A stretch of 45,810 bases of DNA, taken from assembly GCA_026394015.1 (NCBI GenBank), contig JAPKZA010000256.1:1-45810 (forward strand), written 5' to 3'. The stretch's first letter is position 1, and each line of letters starts with the position of its first letter. The translations under genes and the position numbers were made by a program. The notes under the pieces are model-generated. The model was not told the origin of the DNA. It worked only from the letters and a program-made list of their open reading frames with translations, and did not search any database. The stretch is from Acidobacteriota bacterium (GTDB lineage Bacteria > Acidobacteriota > Terriglobia > Bryobacterales > Bryobacteraceae). Positions 24,590 through 32,746 of this stretch are shown piece after piece.

Positions 24590-25603
24590 ATGCTGGGATT
24601 CGATACTCGGGTAGCGCGCGCGACCTGGACGGTGCTCTTGATCCTGCTGGCCGTGGCAATCACATGGTTGGCGCGCGGGGCCGTGCTCGTCTTCGTCCTG
24701 GCCTTACTGCTGGCCTATCTCATCGCTCCCGCCGTCGGCCTAGCCCACCGCTGGTTGCCGATCCGCTGGTCCTACGGCGTCAAACTCGGCGTCGTTTACC
24801 TTCTGCTCTTCGGCGGCGCCGGCACCGTGTTGTTCCTCGTCGTCTCCCACATTGGGCGTGAAGCGGCGGACTTGGCCGCCAAGCTACCCGGCCTCGTCAA
24901 GTCCGGCGGTGCGCTTCTTGACCAACCTCTCCCCGCGCCCCTGGAACCCTACCGCGAGCAGATCCGCACTTTCATCGAAGAGCATATCCAGGAGATCATC
25001 CCCTTCCTCGGTTCGTTCGGACGCGACGTTCTCTCCGGAGCCACCAACCTCCTCTACTTCGTTCTCATTCCCATCCTTAGCTTTCTCTACCTCCTCGAAG
25101 CCCCCACCGTGCGCGAAAAAGTCGGCGAGTTCTTCGGCAACGAGATGCGCCGCGCCAAAGTCGATGCCGTTCTTGCCGACGTCAACCTGTGCCTGGGTGC
25201 CTACATGCGCGCCGTGCTCTCGCTCGTCACCGCCACCTTCGTTGCCTACGGCCTCTACTTCGAAGCCACCTTCGTCCCGTACGCCCTCCTTCTTGCCGCC
25301 GTCTCCGCAGTTTTCGAATTCGTGCCCGTCGTCGGCCCCCTCACCGGCATGGTGCTCAGCGTCGCCGTCGCCACCTTCAGCGGCTACTCCTACTGGGGCT
25401 GGATGATCGTCTTCCTCATCGTCTATCGTCTCTTCCAGGACTACGTTCTTTCTCCCTGGCTCCTCAGCTCCGGCGTCGAACTGCATCCTATCCTCGTCCT
25501 CTTCGGCGTTCTCGTCGGCGAGACCGTCGCCGGCATCCCCGGCCTCTTCCTCTCGGTCCCCGTCATGGCGACCATTCGCATCATCTACCGGCACCTGCGA
25601 TGA
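24590..25603 (+). CDS. AI-2E family transporter (PerM/YdiK-like permease)
   Basis: 337 residues with about eight membrane helices and a soluble segment in the middle (about residues 90-135, HIGREAADLAAKLPGLVK onward). The C-terminal block has FEFVPVVGPLTGM, the YRLFQDYVLSPWLLSSGVELHP region (read here in two halves, YRLFQDYVLSPW and LLSSGVELHP) and GLFLSVPVMATIRI, which are hallmarks of the family. Members include putative autoinducer-2 exporters and Na+/H+ antiporters, so the cargo is open. AGGAT lies nine bases upstream of the ATG. The stop overlaps the next start in ATGA. Confidence 0.9.
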   Translation: MLGFDTRVARATWTVLLILLAVAITWLARGAVLVFVLALLLAYLIAPAVGLAHRWLPIRWSYGVKLGVVYLLLFGGAGTVLFLVVSHIGREAADLAAKLPGLVKSGGALLDQPLPAPLEPYREQIRTFIEEHIQEIIPFLGSFGRDVLSGATNLLYFVLIPILSFLYLLEAPTVREKVGEFFGNEMRRAKVDAVLADVNLCLGAYMRAVLSLVTATFVAYGLYFEATFVPYALLLAAVSAVFEFVPVVGPLTGMVLSVAVATFSGYSYWGWMIVFLIVYRLFQDYVLSPWLLSSGVELHPILVLFGVLVGETVAGIPGLFLSVPVMATIRIIYRHLR

Positions 25604-26481
25604 GGCCATGGCTATGGCTCCTGGCGGTGCCCCTATTCGCTCACATGGTCAGCCTCAGCAGCGGGCAGATGGACATCAACGGCACCGAGGCGCAGTTGGT
25701 CCTCCGCGTCCCCGCCTACGAACTGACCGCCGGCGAACAGTCCCTCGACAACGCGTACCAAATCCAGGGCGCTACCCTCGCTAGCCGAGCCTGCGTCCCC
25801 GACGGCCAGGAACTCGTCTGCACCTACAAGTTCACCGCCGTCCCCGCCTCTCCGCGGATCATCTGCCGTCTCGCGCAGGCCCTCGTCGCCAACCACGTCC
25901 ACGTGCTCACCGCTCGCCGCAACGGTGAAATTGCCCGTCAGGTCTTCTCCGGTGCCGTCTTCGACGCCGACCTCCGCTTCGGTGGTGGCCAGGACCCCAT
26001 CCCCGCGGCCCTCGATGGCGTTGGGCAAGCCTTCTCCGGCTGGGCCCGGCTGCTCTTGCTGTTCACGATCGGCTTCGCCGCCCGCCGCCGACGCGAAGCT
26101 TTGGCCTTTGCCCTGGCCCTCGCCGTCAGCCAGGCGGCGTCCTTATTCTTGGCCCTCCCCGCCTCCCCGCGCTTCGTCGAGGCTGCGGCCGCCATCGGTG
26201 TCGGGTACCTCGCCTTCGAAGTCCTGATGCTTCCGCAGGCCGGCCACCGTTGGCTCGCTGTCGCCGGCGTGGGCGTGCTCCTCGGCCTAGGGGTCCCCTC
26301 CGGCGGATCATTCATCTTTTACTCCGCCTTCGTGCTCTCCGCCGTCGCGACGGTCACCGCCATCGGACTTTGGTCTCTAGCCCGCCGCCCCGCCGCTCGA
26401 ACCGTCTCCGCCGCTCTCCTTCTCCTCGCCGTCCTTTGGTTTTCGCTGCAAGTCCTTGGCAAAGTCCCTTCATCGTTCTGA
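25600..26481 (+). CDS. HupE/UreJ-like membrane protein lacking the usual His/Asp motif
   Basis: 293 residues: signal peptide, an extracytoplasmic beta domain to about residue 140, then about six short helices. The plan matches HupE/UreJ_2 proteins, whose first helix normally contains H-x-x-x-G-x-DH-x-x-F. Here the equivalent reads QAFSGWARLLLLFTIGFAAR, and the usual FT-x-x-HS-x-TL region reads LALAVSQAASLFLAL; the metal-binding residues are gone. The later VEAAAAIGVGYLAFEVLML still looks like the VEA-IA-S-x-x-x-A-E helix. The ATG overlaps the permease stop (ATGA), indicating coupling. Its last 17 or so codons reappear 1.95 kb downstream. Family assignment is by pattern only. Confidence 0.6.
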   Translation: MRPWLWLLAVPLFAHMVSLSSGQMDINGTEAQLVLRVPAYELTAGEQSLDNAYQIQGATLASRACVPDGQELVCTYKFTAVPASPRIICRLAQALVANHVHVLTARRNGEIARQVFSGAVFDADLRFGGGQDPIPAALDGVGQAFSGWARLLLLFTIGFAARRRREALAFALALAVSQAASLFLALPASPRFVEAAAAIGVGYLAFEVLMLPQAGHRWLAVAGVGVLLGLGVPSGGSFIFYSAFVLSAVATVTAIGLWSLARRPAARTVSAALLLLAVLWFSLQVLGKVPSSF

Positions 26482-26499
26482 AACATCTCTCCGGTGGCC
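26431..26499 (+). repeat. left copy of a 69-bp direct repeat flanking the island
   Basis: 59 of 69 bases match 28382-28450 without gaps. The block covers the last 17 codons of the HupE-like gene, including the stop, and 18 bases beyond. The longest identical run is 21 bases or more across the CATCGTTCTGAAACATCTCT segment. Confidence 0.88.
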
Positions 26500-26527
26500 C
26501 GATTGCACGACATCTTCTTGGCCCTGT

Positions 26528-26606
26528 CCCAATGCCATCGTCAAGATCAAGAACTCGCAACAGCCTGGATGAACACCACGCTCCCCGTCTCGATTCCCGC
26601 ACCAAT
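26528..26606 (+). pseudogene. remnant of a TonB-dependent receptor 5' end
   Basis: 26531-26557 matches 28611-28637 at 25 of 27 bases. It translates as PNAIVKIKNS, the same words as in the regulatory domain of the receptor at 28485. It is then joined directly to a stretch (26558-26606) matching 28667-28715 at about 35 of 49 bases, with the intervening 29 bases deleted. A stop codon follows PNAIVKIKNSQQPG. Together with the adjacent left repeat it shows that a second receptor gene once began here. The rest of 26482-26663 has no recognisable gene. Confidence 0.75.
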
Positions 26607-26663
26607 CCACTGGAAGACGACAGAGCCTTCGCAGTTGGTACAGGCTTGGTCTGCCCTGTACGA

Positions 26664-27311
26664 CTAGGTGGGACTGTCGTTAATTTCGGGAAGCGCGGCG
26701 AATCTTCTCGCCGAAATGTTGATATCGCCGCATTCGTTCAGGGGGATCGGGCACCGCGGCTCGAGGGCATCAATAACCGCCCACCCCGCGGGTCTGAACT
26801 CAAGCGCGATCGGATGGATGGTTCTCGGGGAGGCTGACTTCGCATGGATGCGCGTGATCGCCGAATCTCGGATCGCGGCAGCCAGCGCCGACACCCGCAA
26901 ATCTGGTGGATCCCCAAGTTCAGCCGAGAACCGAAATCGCCGTTGAGCTTGCCGAATTCGAAGACGGACGATTCCGGGCATCGATTCCACAAGCTTGTCG
27001 CAGGCCAGGCGACCCGCTGATTCGATCCCCAGCGCGGCCAGCAGCGATTTCGGCAGAGCCAAAATCACGCCGAGCGCCTCGGCCTCGTCCTCGGCTAGGC
27101 CGATCAGCCGTGACTGGTAGTTGAATCCGAGTTCGACGCCACCCGCGTTCCCCCGGTGCACGACGATGGGCAGACCCGCCTCGGTTAAGGCATCAATATC
27201 CCGCATCACCGTGCGCCTGGCCACTTCGAGCTCCGTGGCAAGTTGGAGCGTCGTAACCCGTCCGCGGTTCTGTAGCACCAGTAGGATTCGAAGGAGTCTC
27301 GATGCGCGCAT
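26664..27311 (-). CDS. WYL-domain transcriptional regulator (YafY/DeoR-like HTH)
   Basis: 215 residues. The N-terminal winged helix (about 1-60) has LLRILLVLQNRGRVTTLQLA, VARRTVMRDIDALTEAGLPI and the wing VVHRGNAGGVEL. The C-terminal region (about 140-210) with TIHPIALEFRPAGWAVIDAL and DINISARRF resembles a short WYL-type sensor. It is shorter than most family members. Such proteins usually repress or activate a divergent operon in response to a small ligand. Here the divergent operon is the two genes at 27371 and 27800. A palindrome in the shared promoter region is the likely operator. Confidence 0.82.
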   Translation of the reverse strand: MRASRLLRILLVLQNRGRVTTLQLATELEVARRTVMRDIDALTEAGLPIVVHRGNAGGVELGFNYQSRLIGLAEDEAEALGVILALPKSLLAALGIESAGRLACDKLVESMPGIVRLRIRQAQRRFRFSAELGDPPDLRVSALAAAIRDSAITRIHAKSASPRTIHPIALEFRPAGWAVIDALEPRCPIPLNECGDINISARRFAALPEINDSPT

Positions 27312-27325
27312 AAATATTTTCCAAA

Positions 27326-27344
27326 TATGACAGTAGGTGTCGTA
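27326..27344. promoter_or_regulatory. palindromic operator candidate for the WYL regulator
   Basis: TATGACA (27326-27332) and TGTCGTA (27338-27344) form an inverted repeat with one mismatch and a five-base centre (GTAGG). It lies between the divergent regulator and its neighbour, just upstream of the TATAAT box, where a bound protein could block or recruit polymerase. The region is AT-rich compared with its surroundings. Confidence 0.55.
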
Positions 27345-27355
27345 TTACCCGATCC

Positions 27356-27361
27356 TATAAT
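27356..27361 (+). promoter_or_regulatory. -10 box TATAAT, start of a probably leaderless mRNA
   Basis: A perfect TATAAT ends nine bases before the ATG at 27371, and no Shine-Dalgarno sequence lies between them. Transcription would start at or a few bases before the ATG, giving a leaderless message. No good -35 box is seen, which fits an activator- or operator-dependent promoter. Confidence 0.5.
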
Positions 27362-27370
27362 AGACACAAC

Positions 27371-27793
27371 ATGAGCACCGTAACCTACGGATCGGGCACC
27401 CCCGACGACCCTTGGAAGCTAAAGACGCCTCCGATGACCTCGGAATTTCTCGCTTGGCGTGAGGAGACCGAAAAGCCTCCCAAGTTGGTGGTGCAGGTCG
27501 GGAGTACGAAACTCTCCTACCAACTGCGCTGCATCGAAGATCTATCCGCCATGCTCGGGAAGTGCAACGATTGGATGCCGCTGGGCAATGCGGATGAAGG
27601 CAAGCCAGTCACGCCCGGAACCGTGGAAGCCTGGGCGCGTGACGAATCGAACCCGGTGGGCGGCTATTACGGACTCCGAAAAGGCTATCGTGGCCGCTTC
27701 GCCAACTACGTTCCTCCTGTTCTGGAGTTACTCGGCATGGTGGAACTAGAGCACGGGGCCCGCAACAATCGCGTGCGCGCGATCAGGAAGTAG
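27371..27793 (+). CDS. small conserved protein of unknown function
   Basis: 140 residues, soluble, no signal peptide. It carries a set of strongly patterned blocks: GTPDDPWKLKTPP, VVQVGSTKLSYQLRCIEDL, DWMPLGNADEGKP, TVEAWARDESNPVGGYYGLR and KGYRGRFANYVPPVLELLGM. I recall similar short proteins in many bacteria, often beside WYL-type regulators, but know of no assigned function. It is the first gene of the pair divergent from the regulator and probably lacks a leader. The downstream gene follows after six bases. Confidence 0.8.
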   Translation: MSTVTYGSGTPDDPWKLKTPPMTSEFLAWREETEKPPKLVVQVGSTKLSYQLRCIEDLSAMLGKCNDWMPLGNADEGKPVTPGTVEAWARDESNPVGGYYGLRKGYRGRFANYVPPVLELLGMVELEHGARNNRVRAIRK

Positions 27794-27799
27794 CATCGG

Positions 27800-28222
27800 A
27801 TGAAATCGTTCGCTACTCGAATCGAGATTCAGTCGCCCGCGGAAACGGTATGGAGTGTGCTTACGGAGTTGCCGAAATGGACGGAATGGAATTCCACAAT
27901 CGAGCGCACCATTGGCAAGGTTGCGCTGGGCGCAAAGGTGACGGTCTTCGCGAAACAGAGCCCAGGACGAGCATTTCCGCTCCGGGTCACAGCGCTCGAT
28001 GTGCCACGCAGGATGGTCTGGGTCGGTGGTATGCCCTTTGGGTTGTTCCGTGGCACTCGAGTCTATGAACTCCACGCACCCTCTCTCGCGGAAACCGTAT
28101 TCACGATGCGTGAGGATTACACCGGCCCGCTGGCTTCCCTAATTAGCCGGTCGATTCCGGATCTGCAACCGGCATTCGACGAGTTTGCTCAGTGCCTAAA
28201 GCGGGAGGCGGAGCGACGGTGA
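27800..28222 (+). CDS. SRPBCC (START-like) ligand-binding protein
   Basis: 140 residues of the SRPBCC/polyketide-cyclase helix-grip fold. It begins with the typical IEIQSPAETVWSVLTELPKW-x-EWN strand and helix, has LRVTALDVPRRMVWVGGMPF in the middle, and ends with a long C-terminal helix (LQPAFDEFAQCLKREAE). Such proteins bind small hydrophobic ligands or act on them. It is six bases after the preceding gene, so the two form one operon under the WYL-type regulator; a shared role in sensing or handling one compound is an inference. Confidence 0.83.
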   Translation: MKSFATRIEIQSPAETVWSVLTELPKWTEWNSTIERTIGKVALGAKVTVFAKQSPGRAFPLRVTALDVPRRMVWVGGMPFGLFRGTRVYELHAPSLAETVFTMREDYTGPLASLISRSIPDLQPAFDEFAQCLKREAERR

Positions 28223-28340
28223 AGCCTGAATCGCAAAGAACGCGTATCTTTGTGCACCATCCACCCATCCTTGTCGAAATGGACCATGAAGGGCCTCTGT
28301 TCGCCGCTTTGAAACGGACAAGCGGCGCACCGTAGCGTAG

Positions 28341-28358
28341 GCTAGGCGCCATCCTAGC
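28341..28358. repeat. perfect hairpin downstream of the SRPBCC gene
   Basis: GCTAGG (28341-28346) and CCTAGC (28353-28358) pair perfectly around a six-base loop; a bulged outer stem (GCG with CGC) can extend it. There is no T-run. It could end transcription with Rho, stabilise the message or be a dispersed palindromic element. The 262-base stretch 28223-28484 otherwise holds the right direct repeat and the receptor promoter region. Confidence 0.5.
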
Positions 28359-28381
28359 GAAGCGCGAGCCCACGAGTTCCC

Positions 28382-28450
28382 GTCCTCCGGTCTTCTCTCG
28401 AAATCCTTGGCAAAATCCCTTCATCGTTCTGAAACATCTCTTCGGTAGCC
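28382..28450 (+). repeat. right copy of the 69-bp repeat: tail of a second HupE-like gene
   Basis: Ungapped 59/69 match to 26431-26499. In the same frame it encodes VLRSSLEILGKIPSSF and TGA (28430-28432), against VLWFSLQVLGKVPSSF and TGA at the left copy; most differences are silent or conservative. It is therefore a diverged remnant of a second gene copy, not just repeated noncoding DNA. Upstream of 28382 the similarity stops abruptly. Confidence 0.82.
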
Positions 28451-28484
28451 TGAAGGAAGTTCAACTTTCGGGAGAATACCGCTC

Positions 28485-31400
28485 ATGGCTCGCTTCCTTC
28501 GCGCAACATTGTCCCTTCTGTTCGTTCTAGCCCCCCTGGTCGCCCAAACCGACGCTAATAAGGCGCAGGTTAACGGTACCGTCACCGATCCTAACGGTGC
28601 CGTAGTCCCCAACGCCATCGTCAAGATCAAGAATTCGAACACCGGCCTGCTTCGCGAACTCAAGTCCAACAGCGAGGGCGAATACCGCGCCCCCCTCCTC
28701 GATCCCGGCGTCTATGAAATCGCCGTCTCCAGCCCCGCCTTCGCGGAAACCAAACTGACCGACGTCACCCTGACGGTCGGCTCCAGCGCCCGAATCAACG
28801 TTCGTCTCGCCCTCCAGGCGGTCTCTACTGTTGTTGAAGTCGGGGCCACCATGATCGACGTGCAGACCTCCGCCCAAAGCGCCACGGTCAACAGCAACGC
28901 GATTACGAACCTCCCGATTAACGGCCGCCGCTTCCAGGATTTCGCGGTCCTCACCCCCACCGTTCAAGTGGACAACAACACCCGCGGCCAAATCTCCTTC
29001 GCCGGCCAGCGCGCCATCTATTCGAAAATCATGCTCGACGGCGCCGACTACAACCAACCCTTCTTCGGCGGCATCCGCGGCGGAGAGCGCTCCGGTTCCA
29101 TCATCACCGTCCCCCAAGCCGCCATCCAGGAGCTTCAAGTCGTCCCCACTGGTTACACCGCCGAGTACGGCCGCTCCACGGGCGGCGTGATGAACACCAT
29201 CACCAAGTCCGGCGGCAACGATGTCCATGGTGAGGCGTTCTACCAGATCCGCGACCGCGAACTCAGCTCCAACAGCCCCATCTTCCTCGTCAAGCCCTCG
29301 GAAACCCTGCAGCAGTTCGGCGGCGGCGTCGGCGGACCCATCGTCAAAAACAAGCTCTTCTACTTCGGTGCCATCGAAACCCAGCGCTCGGAAATCCCCC
29401 GCCAAACCCTCTTCCCGCAGCTCACCACCTTCACCCCCACCCCGGAAACCCGCGCCGCCTTCGACTATTACAAGAGCCTCGAAAAGCCCTTTAACCAAAC
29501 CAGTCGCGCCACCGCCCTCACCTCAAAAGCCGACTACCAAATGGCCAACGGCGACCGCCTCACCTTCCGTTATAACTTCTCCCGCTCCAGTGAAGACAAC
29601 GCCGTCACCACCGGTGCCGCCGTCAATCCGTTTGCGAATGCGGCCGTCTCCAACGAAGGCACCGAAAAAGATCAAATCAACAACGGCAACGCGTAGTATA
29701 CGAAGCTCTTTTCCGCCAACGTCGTCAACGATTTCCGCTTCACCGGCTCAGCCGAATTGCGCCCCCGCCTTGCCAACTCCTCCCTACCGCTCGTTACCAA
29801 CACCATCGGCAATTACGGCACCCGCAACTTCCTTCCCACCACTCAAAGCGATAAACGCTGGCAGATCACCGACGCGCTCTCGCTCACCCGCGGTCGCCAC
29901 ACCATCAAGCTCGGAGTCGACCTCAACTTCCTCAGCGCCAGCCAAACCTTCGCCTTCAATCAGTTCGGCACCTTTGGCTTCGCCACCACCGACCTCAATG
30001 CCATTCTCCGCACCATGAGCGCCAACGGCACCGGCGGCGTCAATCGTTTCGATATCCCCGCCGCCACCTACGCCCGCGCCATCGGCAACGGGGCCGCGTC
30101 ATTCGATACCAAACAGATTGCCTTCTTCGCCCAGGACAGTTGGAACGTAACTCGCCAACTCAAAATCGACCTCGGCCTCCGTTGGGAAGGCCAGTACAAC
30201 CCCAAGGTTGAGGCGAACAATACCCAGTTGATCAGCCTTCTGAACAACGTCCGCGCCCCCCTCGGCTCGGTCACCAACGTCACCTCCATCCCGAACTCCA
30301 CCGCTCAGGTGATGCCCCGGTTCGGCTTCGCTTACAGCCCGCTCAGCCAACCCACCAAGCTCGTCCTCCGCGGCTTCACCTGCCTCTTCTACGGCGCTAC
30401 GCCGATGCTCAGCTTCGCCGGCGCGGTGAATAACTTCCGCATTCCTCCCGGTGACGTCTCGCTTCAATTCGGTAACCTCCCCGGCCAACTTACGATCTAC
30501 CAAGCCTTCCTCCGTGCCGGGGTCGACCTCAACCGCACCGCCGTCGATGCCCTCCCCGTTCTCAGCATTCAGCAACTGCAGTCCGCCGCCACCTTCGCCG
30601 CCGGTGGCACCACCCGCGACCCGTTCGCCAACGCCAACGTGCTCGCCATGGGCGCTGACTTCAAAAATCCGCGCGCCTTCCAGATGGGCCTCGGCGCTGA
30701 ATCCGAGATTATGAAAGGCTTCACCGTCGGCGCCCAGTTGCACTACGTCAACACCGCCAACCTCCTCCGGAATCGCAACTACAACCTCCCGATCCCGACC
30801 CTCCGCCCCACGGACCAATCTCAGCGTCCCTTCTTTGGCGTCCGCCCCTTTCCCACCGTCAACCAGTTCACGGTTCGCGAAAGCTCCTCCCGCGGCATGT
30901 ACCGCGCTGCTACGATTTCGGCTCAATACCGGAACAAGCGGGTTCAGTTCCAATCGTTTTATACCGTCTCGGAGAACTTCTCCGACGACGACAACGAGCG
31001 CGACGCCGGTGGCTTCGTCTACGAAAACTCCCTCAATCTGAAGCCCGAATACAATTACGCCAACATGGATACCCGCCACCAGTTCACCTCGAACGGCACT
31101 TACAGCCTGCCCCTCGGCATCGACATCGGCGGCATCTTCCGCGTCCGTTCCGGCCTGCCCTTCAACGCCGTGGCCGGCAGCGATCTCAATGGCGATGGCA
31201 ACAACAACGACCGCCCCTACCTTGCCGCTGGCCGGCCGCTGCCCCGCAACAACTTCCGCAATCGCGGCACCAGCACTTTTGATCTCCGTTTGATGAAGAC
31301 CTTCAAGCTGATGGCTGAACGCGCCAAGCTCCAGTTCTCGGTTGAGTTCTTCAACCTGTTCAATGTGGACAACGTCGTCTTTTCCGGCGGCGCGAACATC

Positions 31401-31553
31401 TACGGCGCGGGCATTCTGGCCGCCACCGGTCAACCCGCCGCCATCGATGCCCGCTTCATGCGTCTGCGGTTAGCCGACGGCAACTACGACCGCAACAACC
31501 AACAGGTGGGCAACCCCCGTCAGATCCAGTTCGCCCTGCGTTTCTTCTTCTAG
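28485..31553 (+). pseudogene. Oar-like TonB-dependent receptor, interrupted by one in-frame TAG
   Basis: The frame from 28485 to 31553 would give 1022 residues: signal peptide, carboxypeptidase-regulatory-like domain (NGTVTDPNGAVVPNAIVKIK, about 25-110), plug domain (LPINGRRFQDFAVLTP to YTAEYGRSTGGVMNTITKSG) and a beta-barrel ending in FALRFFF. Codon 404 (29694-29696) is TAG where NNGNAxYTKLFS would normally have Gln, i.e. one CAG-to-TAG change; the frame is otherwise clean. A truncated product would lack the whole barrel. A barrel segment RGFTCLFYGATP also deviates slightly from the usual R-x-G-x-G-x-FY. It may be a recent pseudogene, a read-through or phase-off allele, or a sequencing error. 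Confidence 0.85.
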
Positions 31554-32097
31554 CTAAGCGACTTGAGCCAGAGCTTTGACGGCCGCAGCCTTGCGCCAAT
31601 TTGGCGCAAAGCCGGCCGAATCTCTGAGAATTCGTATCGCTGCGGTGTAGCCAGGAAACGCCGCCTAGTGAAGCGACGTCTGCCCGGTGGAATCGCGCGA
31701 ATTCACCTTCCATCCCGCTTGCACGAGGTATTGCAGCGCTGAAACAAGGTGTTCGAAGTGCCACTCGCAACTGGCGTGCAGAATGGACGTTCCGGCATTG
31801 GGGTCAGCGCCCGCCTTCAACAGCTCATCCCCAAAGCGAAAGTGAGCCGCGTGTCCAACCGCAATCATGAACGGCGTGGCCTTGCGCGTTTGGCGGCCTC
31901 GGAAAGGCGCGCGGCCGACAGGAGCCAAAGGTTGGTCATGCCCGTCGGATGAGGCGTAGCGGGCTTAAAACAGTGAAGCAGATCTGCCGCTAATTTGTTG
32001 GGGCAACTTGGTTCGGGTTCGCCCCGCGATCCAGTAGTCGCGTCACTTCTTCGCCGTCGCCCGCCCAGCAAGCGTTGTGCAGAAGCTGCCACTTCAT
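31554..32097 (-). pseudogene. broken ankyrin-repeat protein gene
   Basis: Starting at ATG 32097 the reading is MKWQLLHNACWAGDGEEVTR then LLDRGANPN, a clear ankyrin repeat, ending at TAG (31992-31990). After a frame change, 31928-31665 continues with KATPFMIAVGHAAHFRFGDE, LLKAGADPNAGTSILHASCE and NSRDSTGQTSLH. The last His is followed by TAG where repeats have Trp (LHWAA). The same frame then goes on with AAFPGYTAAIRILRDSAG to the TAG at 31556-31554. At least one frame shift and two stops make it non-functional. It ends directly at the stop of the receptor gene. Confidence 0.78.
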
Positions 32098-32192
32098 CGA
32101 AGTCAGAGTATCTCTTGAAGTCCGACCCACGCAAGCACCCTCGCTAACGCCGACATTTACGCGAAGCACGTACCTGTGGAGGCGGCCGCTGC

Positions 32193-32450
32193 TTAGTAGT
32201 GATAACGACAGGCTAAGATCCGAATCTTGTCTGGAAGGACCTGATAAACCAAGCGGTGTTCCTGGTCAATGCGCCGCGACCAACAGCCCACCAACTCGTG
32301 TTTGAGGGGTTCGGGCTTTCCAATGCCGGAAAACGGATCACGCTGAGTATCTCCCACCAGCCGAATGATCCGGATTGCCTGGCTTCGATCGTGTTGAGCC
32401 CACCAAGTGAGGTCGTCGAATGCGGAGGGGTCGAACTCGATGCCTCTCAC
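32193..32450 (-). CDS. yoeB: toxin of a type II toxin-antitoxin pair, YoeB family
   Basis: 85 residues, the normal length for this ribosome-dependent mRNA interferase. The active-site residues known from E. coli YoeB are present: Glu47 in GKPEPLKH, Arg66 in EEHRLVY-like DQEHRLVYQV, and the C-terminal His84-Tyr85 in ACRYHY. The toxin therefore looks intact. Its start overlaps the antitoxin stop by four bases (ATGA), the standard arrangement in which antitoxin is made first. The 95 bases between it and the ankyrin remnant show nothing recognisable. Confidence 0.92.
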   Translation of the reverse strand: MRGIEFDPSAFDDLTWWAQHDRSQAIRIIRLVGDTQRDPFSGIGKPEPLKHELVGCWSRRIDQEHRLVYQVLPDKIRILACRYHY

Positions 32451-32656
32451 AGGCCCAGTTTCGTCACTACGTCCTCTAGCGACACGCCGTTTCGTCGCTC
32501 AAGAGCGTCCTGCAGTCGCTGGCGCATCGCGTCAGATTTCAAGAGATAAGCAGTTTCACGCTCTGAGGCAATCTCCCTCCAAAGAGTGATCGGCACAATC
32601 ACGGCAGTGGCTTCGCCAGCTTCGTTCGACACAATTTGGATGTCAATCTCAGGCAC
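32447..32656 (-). CDS. yefM: antitoxin, YefM/Phd family (short form)
   Basis: 69 residues, somewhat shorter than typical YefM (about 80-90). The N-terminal DNA-binding part is reduced (IQIVSNEAGEATAVIVPITLW), followed by the helix with AYLLKSDAMRQRLQDALER and a C-terminal tail NGVSLEDVVTKLG that should wrap the toxin. The start is a GTG at 32656. The product should neutralise YoeB and repress its own operon through the palindrome just upstream. The pair may be a maintenance element of the accessory region. Confidence 0.82.
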   Translation of the reverse strand: MPEIDIQIVSNEAGEATAVIVPITLWREIASERETAYLLKSDAMRQRLQDALERRNGVSLEDVVTKLGL

Positions 32657-32659
32657 AGA

Positions 32660-32678
32660 CCCAGTTTAACTCGCTGGG
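32660..32678. promoter_or_regulatory. possible operator upstream of yefM-yoeB
   Basis: CCCAG (32660-32664) and CTGGG (32674-32678) form an inverted repeat with an AT-rich nine-base centre (TTTAACTCG), four bases upstream of the antitoxin GTG. The position suits autorepression by the antitoxin-toxin complex, but the arms are short. Confidence 0.35.
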
Positions 32679-32746
32679 GACGGCAAAGTGTCGTTCCAAT
32701 CCGCCCTCCTGCGAGAACGGACGATTTTTGAATCGGAAGCCAGAAC

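Follow-up and report, generated by a model that had tools for sequence, protein, structure and literature searches.

Two copies of a HupE-like/receptor gene junction flank a three-gene island in a Bryobacteraceae genome

The window analyzed here is a 45,810-nucleotide stretch of contig JAPKZA010000256.1 from a soil Acidobacteriota bacterium of the Bryobacteraceae (assembly GCA_026394015.1; G000 below), in which the junction between a HupE-like gene and a gene for a TonB-dependent receptor occurs twice, with three other genes in between. Genes and junction copies lie on the forward strand unless indicated otherwise. An AI-2E transporter family gene (24590 to 25603; PF01594, E 8e-41) shares four bases (ATGA) with the start of the complete HupE-like gene (25600 to 26481), which has orthologues (64% to 80%) in seven genomes of the same genus and whose 3' end belongs to the first copy of the junction. 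This copy A (26429 to 26502) comprises the HupE end with its stop codon and 21 intergenic bases and is followed by a decayed remnant of a receptor 5' end (26528 to 26603). The island consists of an HTH_11 regulator gene on the reverse strand (26664 to 27311; PF08279, E 6e-12), a gene for a DUF6855 protein (27371 to 27793; PF21619, E 2e-64), and a gene for an SRPBCC-fold protein (27800 to 28222; PF10604, E 2e-10). Beyond it, copy B (28380 to 28453) holds a decayed HupE tail and the intergenic DNA leading up to an Oar-like TonB-dependent receptor gene (28485 to 31553; PF13620 and PF25183) that carries an in-frame stop at codon 404 (29694 to 29696).

Copies A and B are identical at 63 of 74 bases without a gap, and the 69-base repeat in their core that a preliminary description of this DNA had pointed out (26431 to 26499 and 28382 to 28450) is real, with 59 of 69 bases identical. 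In a plus-strand self-comparison, this pair is the sole direct repeat of the window at E ≤ 1e-6 (E 9e-17). A gapped alignment over the whole repeated stretch scores 164.8, compared to a maximum of 61.3 among 277 control placements in the window, and the part from 26528 onward reaches 81.5 where the controls peak at 50.7; for the weakest part (26558 to 26663) the margin is narrow, with 38.8 against 32.6 in 360 controls. The receptor remnant behind copy A matches receptor codons 42 to 73 with internal deletions, i.e., 28 of 30 bases between 26528 to 26557 and 28608 to 28637 and 28 of 37 bases between 26558 to 26594 and 28667 to 28703. It had previously been drawn from 26528 to 26606 and is confirmed here as firm up to 26594 and weak from there to about 26603. 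In both copies, a HupE tail is thus followed by a receptor 5' end on the same strand and in the same order at one locus. The differences between the two tails, previously called mostly silent or conservative, do not fit that description: only 3 of the 8 coding differences are third-position changes, and the two peptides differ at 5 of 16 residues (W/R and F/S among them).

A dispersed repeat, which had been named beforehand as a finding that would speak against a duplicated junction, was ruled out by searches of the organism's own 7.9-Mb genome (best match beyond the locus at E 0.02) and of 19 genomes of the genus, where the best match besides the locus itself and the orthologous copy B of the sister genome G012 has E 1.3e-4. 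Direct repeats around a foreign-looking set of genes could also be the attachment sites of a mobile element that integrated site-specifically, and the repeat does include the 3' end of a gene, a common target type for such integration. However, the only genes between the repeats encode the HTH_11 regulator, the DUF6855 protein, and the SRPBCC protein, with no recombinase among them, and the homology covers the HupE tail and receptor codons 42 to 73, far more than an attachment core, at only 85% identity. Attachment sites were rejected on the missing recombinase, and we find this origin hardly credible.

The gene order before the island arrived can be read from relatives. Our HupE search covered 61 genomes, of which 30 besides G000 gave a HupE-like match, and clear orthologues (64% to 80%) are present in 7 of the 18 other genomes of the genus; G018 was left out of these seven for having a 32% fragment match only (E 3.7e-6). 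Ten genomes of the genus gave no match, and since five of these are at least 93% complete, some members of the genus do lack HupE. The seven relatives with a clear orthologue all share the order ECH (reverse strand), AI-2E transporter (forward), and HupE (forward), and in six of them (G001, G008, G009, G015, G016, and G017) a receptor orthologue (81% to 83%) follows HupE directly and without an island. This bears out the expectation of the preliminary description that island-free relatives with adjacent HupE-like and receptor genes should exist, the lack of which it would have counted against itself, and it shows that the AI-2E transporter, HupE-like, and receptor genes ancestrally stood in a row. 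Where the contig reaches far enough (G001, G008, and G017), the match to a FAD oxidoreductase gene begins 2 to 15 bases past the receptor match. The seventh relative, G011, is the nearest genome with a visible locus (88% at the DNA level over AI-2E and most of HupE), and its HupE gene is directly followed by the FAD gene. Because a receptor is present in G000 and the six other relatives, we read its absence from G011 as a loss on a separate line of descent. A distant relative (L140:8-2117) likewise has HupE directly followed by the FAD gene and no receptor, and the closeness of HupE and FAD genes may be older than the position of the receptor there.

Of the two junction copies, the native left end of the receptor is probably B, and that of HupE on its right side is probably A. 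In an alignment, copy B pairs with the relatives' intergenic DNA, and the distance from the HupE stop to the receptor ATG is 52 bases in copy B as in G009 and G016; it measures 61 bases in G001 and G008, 144 in G015, and 8 in G017. Five of the six relatives, all but G017, have a GGAGA ribosome-binding site at the matching place. The first part of the receptor remnant behind copy A matches the receptors of G000 and G012 at 28 of 30 bases each and those of the six relatives at 19 to 23 of 30, which places the origin of the duplication within the G000 lineage. Copies A and B differ at 11 of 74 sites, and the B copies of G000 and G012 at one, so the doubling predates the B alleles that the two sisters carry today.

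We consider a short duplication of the junction, with the island at its seam, the probable origin of this arrangement. The ancestral order, the doubling, the decay of its redundant parts, and the single HupE copies of the relatives are plain from the comparisons; for the size of the original unit, the order of steps, and the route of recombination we infer the following. The duplicated segment would run from the last 17 or so HupE codons into the start of the receptor gene and measure about 0.32 kb by its firm matches or 0.36 kb with the weak last ones. The three-gene island would have come to sit between the junction copies, with copy A supplying the HupE end and copy B the ribosome-binding site and start of the receptor, and the duplication would thereby have kept both neighbors whole at the point of insertion. 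The spare halves, i.e., the receptor start in A and the HupE tail in B, are decaying through deletions and substitutions. As the likeliest route we see a short tandem duplication of the junction and the arrival of foreign DNA at its seam, in one event or in two steps.

The preliminary description had gone further and proposed two tandem pairs of complete HupE-like and receptor genes. Its view of the flanks as two copies of one HupE/receptor junction with the island in between holds up, but full pairs are not in evidence. A duplicated unit of about 4 kb that lost its first receptor and second HupE gene, with the island replacing the middle, would explain both scars by one duplication and one replacement without any coincidence at a seam, and the ancestral adjacency that it needs is real. 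Yet only junction DNA is seen duplicated. Neither a HupE body in 28223 to 28379 nor a receptor body in 26604 to 26700 was found above chance (the best result of both edge searches was a 20-base match at E 0.047), and each of the 113 among 237 family genomes with a HupE match has exactly one, both being arguments from absence. Furthermore, a short duplication has a precedent at this very locus in G015, which carries a head-to-tail duplication across the divergent ECH/AI-2E start region (L092:4478-5093; offset 304 bases) with 282 of 289 bases identical in its ungapped core (about 97%). Given the missing gene bodies, the single HupE copies, and this precedent, we prefer the short duplication and think of full pairs as an unlikely, if serious, contender. 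Two further matches were not used: homology to G014 reaching to 26612 proved to be a product of permissive scoring with no clear match by eye, and a 112-base repeat just 3' of the receptor in G016 (L094:10004-10206) could be an artifact of assembly, given its place at the end of a contig.

Several observations weigh against a short junction duplication. Had the junction been doubled and the island inserted independently of each other, it would be by coincidence that the island sits at the seam, and the seam itself is unreadable because the inner edges have decayed. None of the genomes seen carries the intermediate, a doubled junction without the island. The variable spacing between HupE and receptor in the relatives makes the argument for copy B as the native end just a moderate one. 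The sister genome G012 offers a view of the right side only, its contig beginning inside the SRPBCC gene, and its bin (58% complete) gave no match to HupE or AI-2E. Finally, a junction duplication leaves the diverged 3' end of HupE unexplained. Compared with G011, this end (26305 to 26481) has diverged much more than the remainder of the gene, as if it had been replaced: over the last 60 or so codons, the two final 30-column windows show 41% and 56% protein identity, compared to 77% to 97% earlier in the gene. Among 52 loci compared, no source for the divergent tail closer than the own genus was found.

Together with this tail, a mosaic of identity between G000 and G012 points to recombination at the locus: the two genomes are 98.8% identical over 28177 to 28740, 91.2% over 28741 to 29376, 98.4% over 29377 to 31026, and 91% to 94% beyond (to 34626). 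These signs keep alive a model in which a related donor carrying the island together with a HupE tail and a receptor 5' end was the source of the insert in a single event. The receptor end of the donor DNA would have recombined with the resident receptor by homology, and its other end would have been joined illegitimately within the start of that receptor, with copy A remaining as the resident and copy B as the donor junction. Variants of this route include homology-facilitated illegitimate recombination, a mechanism known from experiments (PMC3240628), and the single-crossover integration of a circle. Such an import would yield the exact order observed in one step and account for the 15% difference between A and B, and the mosaic indicates that recombination has acted here. 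However, copies A and B both have the unusual HupE tail that is absent from G011, so the donor would need to be very close kin, no donor was found, and the intergenic DNA of copy B aligns with that of the genus. On balance, an import strikes us as quite improbable.

Another insertion at the locus, about 1.2 kb long (31554 to 32746), lies between the receptor and FAD genes, where three relatives have 2 to 15 bases. It contains a YoeB-type toxin gene with a weakly matching YefM-like partner (E 0.003) and is present in G012 as well, with differing lengths.

Regarding the island itself, the regulator had previously been described as a WYL protein, a label to be dropped since it matches HTH_11 and other HTH models and no WYL model at E ≤ 1e-3. 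The divergently oriented regulator and DUF6855 genes recur in G013 (67%, 78%) and G014 (73%, 84%) among different neighbors, and within the 16 to 17 kb compared this pair is all that is common to these loci, which suggests that it travels as a unit. A conserved dyad, ATATGACW-n5-TGTCRTAT (27325 to 27345), lies between the two genes in G000, G013, and G014. The hexamer behind it reads TATAAT in G000 and G014 but CATAAT in G013. The dyad is probably the operator of the regulator, and the pair probably a self-regulated unit. A scan of 26400 to 28500 for promoters and terminators returned no promoter-like and two terminator-like sites, no excess over shuffled sequences. The SRPBCC gene is not found beside the pair in G013 or G014. 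It is present in 4 of 101 genomes at E 1e-6, this one included, with its nearest homologue in G065 (53%), and its last bases are visible at the contig end of G012. A search of one library found no paper on DUF6855, and by title none of the matches listed there describes a bacterial island of similar kind.

The recurrence of the regulator/DUF6855 pair bears on one further idea, that duplication and insertion were one and the same event, with integration copying several hundred bases of the target on both sides. We hold this to be very improbable. If it were true, cargo could enter between tightly packed genes and leave both whole, and the pair, for which the genus offers three genomes with unrelated sites, would be repeatedly arriving cargo.

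The name HupE-like, taken over from the preliminary description, holds only loosely. The protein of the window matches the HupE/UreJ family model (PF13795) at E 0.027 with 14.6 bits, below the cut-off of 24.5 bits, and an NCBIfam search gave no match at E 0.01, although among 12 aligned homologues, 6 do match the Pfam model at E ≤ 10 (best 2e-9). The receptor has the domain order of Oar-like TonB-dependent receptors, i.e., CarboxypepD_reg (PF13620; 72.6 bits), plug (PF07715; 20.6 bits, below its cut-off of 23.9), and OMP_b-brl_4 (PF25183; 65.3 and 209.5 bits in the two halves), with the first and last of these above their cut-offs. Unlike these proteins, and as a correction to the preliminary description, it is interrupted at codon 404, which may mark the onset of pseudogenization or be a mistake of the assembly; the G012 copy has no such stop and encodes 1,022 amino acids.

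Do the two proteins work together, as the preliminary description suggested, for instance in the uptake of a metal or cofactor? Gene order lends this little support beyond the genus. Within the genus, 6 of 7 loci have a receptor directly downstream of HupE and on its strand, as against only 1 of the 38 distant loci, out of 45, that could be scored for it, and G011 has HupE without a receptor. By contrast, an AI-2E transporter gene lies upstream in all 7 close loci and in 33 of the 42 distant loci, again out of 45, where scoring was possible, making it the widely conserved neighbor of HupE. At two distant loci, receptor homologues of 50% to 60% lie on the strand opposite to HupE, 1.5 to 1.7 kb downstream of it (L111, 6001-11442, and L138, 23-4320), and another locus too short to score (L134) has a 33% receptor-like match close downstream. 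Judging from these matches, HupE and receptor genes may be linked somewhat more widely than a count of direct neighbors reveals. In G000, the island parts the receptor from the AI-2E and HupE genes, and the receptor has since come to carry a stop; its absence from G011 is separate.

Homology-facilitated illegitimate recombination has been established experimentally (PMC3240628) and was proposed as the source of displaced gene remnants (PMC5361080). Similar to what these papers describe, incoming DNA held by homology at one end and attached at an arbitrary site at the other would leave displaced remnants like those at our locus. No donor was found here, though, and copy B aligns with the junction of the genus itself. 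Another likeness is to tandem duplication and random loss, a known model of partial duplication followed by decay of the redundant parts. Here, too, a stretch across a gene boundary is doubled, each half has one useful copy, and the spares are decaying; unlike in that model, the doubled stretch appears to be a junction and not whole genes, and a foreign island of three genes lies in between. The locus is a clearly readable example of how a duplicated junction can shield both neighbors from an insertion, with the unbroken ancestral state preserved in sister genomes; otherwise the case is one of ordinary genome evolution and tells little about function.

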